Below are positions 35,916 through 63,620 of a stretch of 64,000 bases of DNA, piece after piece. Origin of the DNA: Treponema primitia ZAS-2 (GTDB lineage Bacteria > Spirochaetota > Spirochaetia > Treponematales > Breznakiellaceae); NCBI RefSeq assembly GCF_000214375.1, contig NC_015578.1, positions 1,426,001-1,490,000 on the forward strand, written 5' to 3'. Within the stretch, counting starts at the first letter, position 1, and each line of letters begins with the position of its first letter. Both the position numbers and the translations under genes were made by a program. The notes below the pieces were generated by a model, which saw only the letters and a program-made list of their open reading frames with translations, had not been told where the DNA came from and did no database searches.

Positions 35916-35988
35916 GGCGGCATAGCTCAGTTGGTAGAGCATACGGCTCATATCCGTAGTGTCATAGGTTCAATCCCTATTGCCGCTA
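35916..35988 (+). tRNA. tRNA-Met (CAU), elongator type likely
   Basis: The acceptor stem GGCGGCA pairs with TGCCGCT (one G-T) and the D arm is AGCTCAGTTGGTAGAGCA. The anticodon stem TACGG/CCGTA encloses CTCATAT with anticodon CAT. The T arm is ATAGG-TTCAATC-CCTAT and the discriminator is A. The stem ends rule out initiator tRNA, which needs an unpaired 1:72. A lysidine-modified tRNA-Ile2 also has CAU and cannot be fully excluded. CCA is not encoded. Its 3' end is repeated at 36143, 36312 and 38120 and, degenerately, at 51.2 kb. Confidence 0.92.
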
Positions 35989-36411
35989 AAGAAAAAAAGT
36001 AAATATGACCGAATAGATTGCGGCAATAGGGATTGAAGGGTTCAGTCCGCCGACCGAACGGGAGGAAAAGGGGCCATGGATGGCCCCGACAGGACTGAAC
36101 CCCGGGTCGGAAGGCCGAAGCAGGATGCTGAGGCCTGGAGACCAATCCCTATTGCCGCTAGAAAAGATTAAATACGACCGAACATATTCCGGCAATAGGG
36201 ATTGAAGGGTTTAGTCCGCCGACCGAATGGGAGGAGAAGGGGCCATGGATGGCCCCGTCAGGGTTAAACCCCGGGTCGGAAGGCCGAAGCAGGATGCTGA
36301 GGCCTGGAGACCAATCCCTATTGCCGCTAGAAAAGATTAAATACGACCGAATATATTCCAGCAATAGGGATTGAAGGGTTTAACCCGCCGACCGAACGGG
36401 AGGAAAAGGGG
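35971..36411. repeat. Tandem repeat array built on the tRNA 3' end
   Basis: The 17-mer CAATCCCTATTGCCGCT, the tRNA 3' end, recurs at 36143 and 36312. Between copies its reverse complement (CGGCAATAGGGATTG) occurs at 36021, 36190 and, slightly changed, 36360. Units are 172 and 169 bp; the third is cut off at about 36411 by the integrase fragment. Each full unit folds into an 11-bp stem (36038-36048 with 36092-36102; 36207-36217 with 36261-36271) enclosing GGGGCCA-TGGA-TGGCCCC, then a hairpin AGGCC-GA-AGCA-GGA-TGCT-GA-GGCCT (36112-36136). The minus-strand open frames here are by-products of the repeats. Confidence 0.85.
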
Positions 36412-36898
36412 CCAGGCCATAGGCCGTGAATACTGCTATGCAAATCACGGTTTTATTGAACGCCATATTAAGCCCCGCGTACAGGGATTACATCTGCGGG
36501 AAGTGACAGCCCAGGATTTGGATCGGTTACAGCTTCAGATTAAAAAAGAAACCAAACTCAAGGCAAAGACCGTCAATTCAATCCTGGCCGCTGTCTGTAT
36601 ACCAATTCGCGAAGCCTTCAGGGTTGGAAGAGTATCCCATAACCCGGCGCAAAAATTTCGCGGCCTTGGGCGCGATGACGATCCCCGGGGGATCCTTTCA
36701 AGCGCGGAACTGAAAAAGCTCTTTGCAGAACCCTGGGAGACGGAAGCCCACAGGTTAGCTGTGGCGCTCTCGCACGCCACCGGGATGCGCCTGGGAGAAA
36801 TACTTGCCATAGGGCTGGAGGATATAACCCTGGACTTCGAGGAGAAGCCGGTGTTATGGGTCCGGAAAAGCTGGTCTACAGTATCGGGCCATAAGTGA
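36371..36898 (+). pseudogene. Truncated tyrosine recombinase (integrase)
   Basis: The 175-aa frame starts with an ATG inside the third repeat unit; its first 15 residues are repeat-derived. From GREYCYANHGFIERHIKPRV it matches the core-binding domain of phage integrases (QLQIKKETKLKAKTVNSILAAVCIPIREAFRVGRV), then enters the catalytic domain at LSHATGMRLGEILAIGLEDI, with the first catalytic arginine present. It stops at GHK* before the HxxR and tyrosine motifs, so it cannot catalyse recombination. It is the remains of the enzyme that probably used the CAU tRNA as its site. Confidence 0.85.
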
Positions 36899-62409: not shown

Positions 62410-62886
62410 ATGTTAAAAGCCGCTTTTCCCGGATCCTTTGACCCCCCCAGTTTTGGTCACCTGGATATCATTGGCCGTGGGGCCGCCCTTTTTGATGAAC
62501 TGGTGGTGGTAGTGGGGGCCAATCGGCAAAAAAAAGGCCTTTTTACCGTAGAAGAGCGGATCGCCCTGGTCGCGGAACTGGTAAAACCCTGGAAAAATGT
62601 AACTGTAGAAAGCTGGGACGGGCTTATTGCAGATTTTATCAGGGACCGGGACATCAGGCTTCTGATCCGTGGTATTCGTGGGGTGAACGATTTCTCCCAG
62701 GAATTGGACCTTTCTATATGGAACAAAACCCTGAATCCCAAAGCGGAGACCATTTTCATGAGTGCCGACCCCCGGTACTCCTTACTAAGCTCCTCGGCAT
62801 TGAAGGAACTGGCATCGTTTCACCAAGATCTTTCACCTTATGCGCCGCTTCTGGTTGTGGAGGCGCTGAAGAAGAAGTTCTCTTAG
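62410..62886 (+). CDS. coaD: Phosphopantetheine adenylyltransferase
   Basis: The 158-aa enzyme makes dephospho-CoA from 4'-phosphopantetheine and ATP. The nucleotidyltransferase signature FPGSFDPPSFGHLDIIGRG is at 6-24 with the HxGH-type histidine at SFGHLD. RGIRGVNDFSQELDLSIWN and the C-terminal RYSLLSSSALKELASF (the usual ISSTxIRE region) complete the site. Length and motifs match the bacterial hexamer. No ribosome site is clear at the ATG. It is followed by the repeat cassette. Confidence 0.95.
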   Translation: MLKAAFPGSFDPPSFGHLDIIGRGAALFDELVVVVGANRQKKGLFTVEERIALVAELVKPWKNVTVESWDGLIADFIRDRDIRLLIRGIRGVNDFSQELDLSIWNKTLNPKAETIFMSADPRYSLLSSSALKELASFHQDLSPYAPLLVVEALKKKFS

Positions 62887-62900
62887 CTTTTTGCTAATAT

Positions 62901-63027
62901 GCCGGCGGGGGCGGGGAGGTCATCGGGGGGCTAACATGTTGAGTCCGCCTCCGTCAGCCCGCTGCGCGGTCTGCTACGGCGGGGAATTCCATAGACGCCC
63001 CCCGATGGCCTCCCCACCCCCGCCGGC
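62901..63027. repeat. Repeat element copy A with 31-bp terminal inverted repeats
   Basis: The left arm (62901-62931) and right arm (62997-63027) are 31-base reverse complements with two differences, both allowing G-T pairing. The 65-bp core begins CTAACATGTTGAG and ends GGAATTCCATAGAC. A homologous element lies in the opposite orientation at 63411-63535. Confidence 0.85.
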
Positions 63028-63030
63028 ACC

Positions 63031-63350
63031 TTGGTTAAAAGGTAGGGGATTTCGTCCACCCGCAGCGGCGTGTTGGTTCGGTGGGGTGACTTGGTTCTGG
63101 GGTGGGGCAGTTTCCGGAGACGCCCTCCTGCTCCCCGCCGGCGCCTTGGTTAAAAGGTAGGGGATTTCGTCCCCCCATAGCGGCGTGTTGGTTCGGGGGG
63201 TGACTTGGTTCTGGGGTGGGGCAGTTTCCGGAGACGCCCTCCTGCCCCCCGCCAGCGCCATGGTTAAAAGGTAGGGGATTTCGTCCCCCCACAGCGGCGT
63301 GTTGGTTCGGGGGGTGACTTGGTTCTGGGGTGGGGCAGTCTCTGATAGCA
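63031..63350. repeat. About 2.9 tandem copies of a 115-bp GC-rich unit
   Basis: Units start at about 63031, 63146 and 63260 (TTGGTTAAAAGG or ATGGTTAAAAGG). They are 115 and 114 bp long and nearly identical. Because 115 is not a multiple of three, the proline-rich minus-strand frames across them are not genes. The end of each unit (GGGGCAGTTTCCGGAGACGCC) resembles the terminal arm of element B. Confidence 0.85.
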
Positions 63351-63410
63351 ACCAAGGCATACCGCGAAAGAGAAGCCCTTTTTCCTCTGAACCAGACCTT
63401 GTAACCAAGG

Positions 63411-63535
63411 CGCCGACGGGGGGCGGGGCAGTCTCGGGGGCGTCTCTGGAATTCCTCCCCGGAGCAGACCCGTAGGGGCTGACGGAGGGGAATTCTACAG
63501 GTTAGCCCCCGAGGCTGTTCCGCCCCCCGTCGGCG
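63411..63535. repeat. Repeat element copy B, inverted relative to copy A
   Basis: The left arm (63411-63441) and right arm (63505-63535) are 31-base inverted repeats with three differences. Reverse-complemented, its core begins CTAACCTGTAGAATTC and ends GGAATTCCAGAGAC, matching element A. It bounds the array on the right. Confidence 0.85.
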
Positions 63536-63591
63536 TATTAGCGAAAAAGCCCTGACTCCCCAGGAAAATGGATATCTCCAGGAAAATGGGC

Positions 63592-63620
63592 TTGTCAAAC
63601 TTGACAGTATTTGATATATT
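63592..63620 (+). promoter_or_regulatory. Promoter of rpmF
   Basis: TTGTCA (63592-63597) and TATATT (63615-63620) are 17 bases apart, about 38 bases before the rpmF ATG. The palindrome TGTCAA-AC-TTGACA (63593-63606) overlaps the -35 box. Confidence 0.6.

Follow-up and report, generated by a model that had tools for sequence, protein, structure and literature searches.

Composition of the coaD-rpmF interval

The window, i.e., the whole 64,000-nucleotide stretch of Treponema primitia ZAS-2 DNA analyzed here, contains coaD (phosphopantetheine adenylyltransferase; 62410..62886, + strand; Pfam PF01467, E 2.6e-21) followed by rpmF (ribosomal protein L32; 63658..63846, + strand; Pfam PF01783, E 5e-23). 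These genes are the outer neighbors of a cassette at 62898..63537 (no strand assigned), which lies between the coaD stop and the rpmF promoter and has family matches at both ends, its exact ends not being fixed. The coaD-rpmF gap is 771 bp in T. primitia ZAS-2 versus 26–144 bp in eight relatives of the same order; in the remaining relatives examined, something other than rpmF comes after coaD. Because the gap is so short in those eight organisms, the 640-base cassette (62,898-63,537) is, as judged by sequence comparison, extra DNA inserted at this site. A promoter-like site precedes rpmF on the 3' side of the insertion (63592..63620, + strand). It was the best such site, and TTGACA-type sites could be read in the uninterrupted gaps of several relatives. 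A Pfam search of mechanically derived ORFs across the cassette matched no family, in agreement with the first-pass annotation, which had found no fitting protein gene.

The cassette is bounded by two hairpins of ~125 bp each. Copy A (62901..63027, + strand) has arms at 62901-62931 and 62997-63027 around a core at 62931-62997 and reads CTAACATGTTGA..CCATAGACG on the + strand. Copy B (63411..63535, - strand) is in the opposite orientation, with arms at 63411-63441 and 63505-63535, a core at 63441-63505 and the sequence CTAACCTGTAGA..CCAGAGACG on the - strand. The arms of copy B are 31 nt long and 90% complementary, and the two copies match at 78% in inverted orientation, so the opposed ~126-bp elements with 31-bp inverted arms described in the first-pass annotation were recovered. 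Both strands of both hairpins fold far better than expected (z about -9 to -10.6 for the four folds), and none of 200 shuffles was equally stable.

Between the hairpins lies a tandem array (63017..63339, + strand) of 2.8 copies with a period of 114 bp and 95% matches. Every unit consists of the right end of hairpin A (..CCGGAGACG, right arm) and its inner flank (CCTTGGTTAAAAGG..), i.e., the right half of the hairpin is repeated with the flank and the rest of the core is lost; the stretch 62968-63081 has 68% identity to the 114-bp unit. This corresponds to the nearly three arm-like tandem units noted earlier. When folded alone, the tandem units were no more stable than shuffles. The inner flank of copy B (63340..63410, no strand assigned; ..TTGTAACCAAGGCGCCG) mirrors that of copy A (CACCTTGGTTAAAAGG) as an inverted repeat, and the same flank type occurs in other copies. 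The interval is one head-to-head hairpin pair whose inner part has been locally duplicated in tandem. No clear target duplication was visible by eye at this copy, whose outermost bases are themselves inverted repeats. Elsewhere in the window, 2.6 tandem copies of a 169-bp repeat (35971-36414) begin where a tRNA gene (35916-35988) has its 3' end.

Copies in T. primitia ZAS-2

A DNA search combined with a covariance model detected ~42 hairpins in the single 4,059,867-bp contig of this organism. Neighboring genes were called on 38 family loci with a home-made dicodon caller, which overlooks short genes (e.g., rpmF); the 34 units for which flanking genes could be called were all intergenic, lying between co-directional (22), convergent (6) or divergent (6) gene pairs. 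The copies adjoin many unrelated genes in both orientations. Several are located 12–23 bp past gene 3' ends, and many 60–130 bp upstream of gene starts, including positions between divergent genes. Copies no more than 1 kb apart were always arranged A..B, head-to-head (10/10 complete dimers, 12/12 when partial partners were included), with the partners separated by 170–510 bp. At least three flank types, with mirrored flanks, could be distinguished. Very small GC-rich hairpins, of which many have a CTTGC-type loop (e.g., AACCCACTTGCGTGGGGG and GGACCTGCTTGCAGGTCC), were inserted in or beside the core at 940684, 1034007, 2518379 and 2577723 in this genome and at L200, L209 and L234 in relatives, as though the core were the target of another, smaller mobile hairpin.

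Occurrence in other organisms

Eight further genomes of the same family as the host contained 1–33 copies each, most of these relatives being represented by incomplete metagenome-assembled genomes (MAGs), and the searched genomes of the other families of the order had no copies. When 84,980 species genomes were scanned with a degenerate pattern, 76 contigs matched, all of them titled Treponema, Spirochaetaceae or Spirochaetia; most were from MAGs, and nine belonged to MS502-68, a genome whose records carry no MAG label. Judging by isolate names, the hosts are termite or cockroach gut dwellers. Three head-to-tail arrangements were present in Ncb351_bin73. Viral contigs showed no match to the repeat. 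No Rfam family scored above the gathering threshold, the weak matches being mostly GC-rich microRNA hairpins, and no description of a treponeme repeat of this kind was found in a search confined to open-access papers.

The first-pass annotation had proposed an undescribed GC-rich miniature element family of treponemes. The ~42 copies here, the many in relatives and the lack of an earlier description in open-access papers and Rfam bear this out, and the genome-wide count argues against a purely local rearrangement. Its further suggestion that the element amplifies in place holds in part: the tandem amplification is real and was noticed in the window copy only, but the genome-wide spread is dispersed.

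A conserved core within drifting arms

Among the copies of T. primitia ZAS-2, cores are 87% identical and left arms only 58%, while the two arms of one copy are 93% complementary. Covariation was analyzed in the arms of 31 copies. Double changes occurred in 34 of 39 pairs, which 0 of 500 shuffles came near; 95.7% of arm cells were paired, double-changed cells numbered 309 versus 83.5 in shuffles, and the covariation score was 0.705 versus 0.18 when the arms were slid by one, other slid versions likewise falling far short. The core has the form TGTAGA-stem-loop-stem-GGAATTCCA and spans ~50–65 nt, with a structured loop of about 12–42 nt or more, within arms of 25–35 bp. The inner motif TGTAGA..GGAATTCCA lies outside the stems and is conserved or invariant across genera, while the stems covary. 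TGTAGA was found in nearly all copies and genera, with GTTG in one subtype of this genome, and the bulges and internal loops of the core also persist across genera; some copies have core deletions. Because the hairpin is preserved across dozens of copies and several genera while its letters have changed, its shape itself probably matters.

An identical core type was found inside palindromes with different flanks, and the flank ends of relatives are unlike those of T. primitia ZAS-2 and appear unrelated by eye. The oddest feature of the family is that the ends outside the core differ between genera and the center is conserved. In ordinary MITEs, the ends are the part read by the transposase. 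Since the ends vary between genera here, ordinary recognition of terminal inverted repeats (TIRs) fails to explain the conserved center.

Bias of wobble pairs toward one strand

The first-pass annotation had remarked on G-T differences between the arms, and these turned out to be informative: most mismatches read as G.T, on one strand only. In T. primitia ZAS-2, arm mismatches were mostly A.C on the A strand, which is G.T on the B strand (50 versus 14, p 7e-6, for copies that share ancestry and are not independent). Counted by sign, the bias was seen in 25 copies versus 4, and it held in both orientations. By subtype, the ratio was 31:5 for type II and, more weakly, 19:9 for types I/III (p 0.09). 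The relatives gave 153 versus 78: five genomes showed the bias in the same direction, Ncb351_bin73 showed it reversed, and two were neutral or had too few copies. The B strand also folded better as RNA in 39 of 43 copies of this genome and in 23 of 30 from relatives. Wobble pairs that favor one strand suggest an RNA or single-stranded DNA substrate and point to selection on one folded strand, with strand-specific mutation as another possible source of the bias. Because the fold is favored on one strand, a structured-RNA role is among the possibilities.

Terminal inverted repeats and flanking direct repeats

In the Gsp477, Roe453 and Ct408 genomes, the hairpin is located within an element of ~160–250 bp that has CTAAACTTGACCC as TIR. 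Direct repeats of 7–10 bp, mostly 9–10 bp, flank such units (raw counts, uncorrected for chance). They are exact over 9 bp at L155, L193 and L199 and over 10 bp at L162, L166, L202 and L204; L163 has a 7-bp repeat, and one mismatch is present at L212 (9 bp) and L226 (10 bp). About half of the outermost TIR pairs examined had no flanking direct repeat. With regard to target-site duplications, a question raised by the first-pass annotation, the outcome is therefore divided between the window copy, where none is clear, and this one sub-lineage, where flanking direct repeats occur. Because TIR units carry these 7–10-bp repeats in some relatives, the sequences indicate that the element moves or has moved.

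Some TIR units with direct repeats, at L155 (2115-2285) and L162/L235 (1589-1822 in L162), lacked an intact core. Since the L155 and L162 units fail the core pattern, movement of this kind does not depend on an intact core. In Gsp477, the orientation of the core relative to its flanks is reversed in some copies (L190 and L222 against L155, L214 and L229), as expected from recombination between arms. Several TIR units (L204, L225 and L166) are situated within palindromic, terminator-like sequence (e.g., CCGCGGAGCAAGCT / AGCAAGCTCCGCGG), which suggests a preference for hairpin targets.

Search for a partner enzyme

Three RAYT-like genes are present in the T. primitia ZAS-2 genome (loci L071-L073), and no core was found within 1.5 kb of any of them. 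Repeats of other kinds, AAGGTGCCTGGCACC and GGGGACAGAGCTCA, flank two of these genes (at ~464, 1297 and 1961 in L071 and at ~164, 1398 and 2395 in L073); GGGGACAGAGCTCA fits the published GGGGWSAS motif of TIR-flanked tyrosine transposases. The Y1 transposase (Y1_Tnp) was undetected in G019, G038, G021 and G044, which contain 33, 32, 3 and 2 copies, respectively, and are MAGs of 66–86% completeness. A RAYT/Y1 transposase is an unlikely partner, being present but unlinked to the copies and undetected in copy-rich relatives.

We also looked for an autonomous element with CTAAACTTGACCC ends, and none was found in the TIR intervals examined (G057/G058, fragmented assemblies). L231 encodes a reverse transcriptase of the group II intron type, located beside a partial integrase ORF; L234 consists of two separate elements around a CoA-ligase gene; L230 is an interrupted unit without a recognized transposase; and a 5.7-kb contig that terminates in a hairpin on either side has only ordinary-looking genes inside. 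The reverse transcriptase of L231 (961-2265; G057:C240), named from sequence, adjoins a family element, and in L230 (G057:C132:1-2200) an apparent group II intron 5' end is located inside the interrupted hairpin unit. The matching transposase for which the first-pass annotation had proposed a check was not found in these searches.

Relation to known repeats

Integron attC sites have variable stems, a conserved structure with extra-helical bases, and one favored strand. The treponeme hairpins resemble them in all of these features but differ in that no GTT/AAC core-site pair was seen by eye at the hairpin base and there are no cassette arrays.

The closest known kinds are GTAG/CGTC REP dimers inside palindromes, and MITEs. 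In PMC3733652, GTAG- and CGTC-tagged REPs are described with a loop of 2–20 nt and predominantly head-to-head dimers whose partners are mostly 20–100 bp apart; long palindromes enclose some REP families (A. variabilis GTAG-15, H. neapolitanus CGTC-1), CGTC families have no dedicated transposase, and CGTC repeats are reported in a spirochete. Relative to that account, the treponeme repeats are likewise intergenic palindromes with GTAG (GTTG in one subtype) on one side of the stem and CCA on the other, form head-to-head dimers and are inserted inside long palindromes. They differ from it in the ~50–65-nt core, the loop of 12–42 nt or more, the covarying arms of 25–35 bp, the sharing of one core by palindromes with different flanks, and the spacing of 170–510 bp between partners. 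Unlike GTAG REPs, the treponeme core does not flank the RAYT genes of T. primitia ZAS-2. No CGTC REP (CGTC-AT..AT-CCA, stem 8–9 bp, loop 4–5 nt) was detected in the window, the 38 family loci or the RAYT loci.

Bacterial MITEs such as QMITE2 of Coxiella, which has direct repeats of 7–9 bp (PMC10969869), are similarly short and intergenic, without an ORF, with TIRs, direct repeats and a stable transcript fold. In contrast to them, the treponeme element has ends that vary between genera around a conserved center, is GC-rich rather than AT-rich, and has its structure kept by covariation. The MITE features (no ORF, TIR, direct repeats) were found together in the sub-lineage, the direct repeats, again as raw counts, not being seen at the window copy.

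Interpretation

We consider it quite likely that the cassette arose when a REP/MITE-like palindromic repeat, mobile but non-autonomous and dispersed among termite-gut treponemes, inserted at this site. The unit would be a ~125-bp hairpin in which a small conserved core sits in long arms that may drift freely provided that they pair. Longer palindromes would be moved via their TIRs by a transposase acting in trans, and the core might be read as a folded single strand, either as ssDNA during mobility or as B-strand RNA (5'-CGTCTCTGGAATTCC..CTACAGGTTAG-3'). A broader proposal, which we put forward tentatively, is a lineage-wide mobile class in which a selected, one-strand folded core (RNA or ssDNA) is passed between unrelated palindromic carriers; the core, and not the ends, would define the family and be recognized by a partner.

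The core could instead be a functional non-coding RNA made from the B strand, hitch-hiking in mobile palindromes and kept for its own action, e.g., as a decoy or a processed small RNA. The strand-biased wobble, the better folding of the B strand, the invariant unpaired bases next to covarying stems, and the occurrence of one core in palindromes with different flanks would all fit such an RNA, but it belongs to no Rfam family, its distribution is patchy and some copies have core deletions; folding of single-stranded DNA would also yield G.T tolerance. We regard this explanation as rather unlikely. It seems improbable that RAYT mobilizes the core, as a GTAG-type REP, in the form of single-stranded DNA: the TGTAG tag, CCA tail, head-to-head dimers, intergenic sites and insertion in long palindromes match published REPs and the genome has three RAYT-like genes, yet these have no core within 1.5 kb and two are flanked by other repeats, the four relatives named above yielded no Y1 transposase, the loops (about 12–42 nt) exceed the published 2–20 nt, and one subtype of this genome has GTTG.

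We likewise give little credence to the idea that the palindromes lack a function and owe their perfect pairing to template switching or to gene conversion between arms. Such correction would produce complementary arms of drifting sequence, and the flipped cores of Gsp477 fit arm-arm exchange; however, it would also erase the core's bulges and internal loops, features kept across genera, and by itself it gives no strand bias. Least probable, and in our view very much so, is a transcription terminator or mRNA-stabilizing structure after genes. The first-pass annotation had suggested a termination region before a ribosomal operon, and the several copies 12–23 bp beyond gene 3' ends are in its favor, but no T-tract directly follows the hairpins, many copies precede gene starts by 60–130 bp or lie between divergent genes, the neighbors are unrelated and occur in both orientations, and at rpmF the promoter-like site (63,592-63,620) is downstream of the cassette, a position that also speaks against an rpmF leader.

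Small palindromic repeats are common, and one can seldom tell whether selection maintains their shape or whether it is simply a leftover. Comprising dozens of copies in a genome and spanning several genera, the repeat family described here offers a covariation record that separates conserved unpaired bases from drifting stems, and its strand bias predicts which strand is used. As T. primitia ZAS-2 is in culture, RNA-seq and binding tests are feasible.
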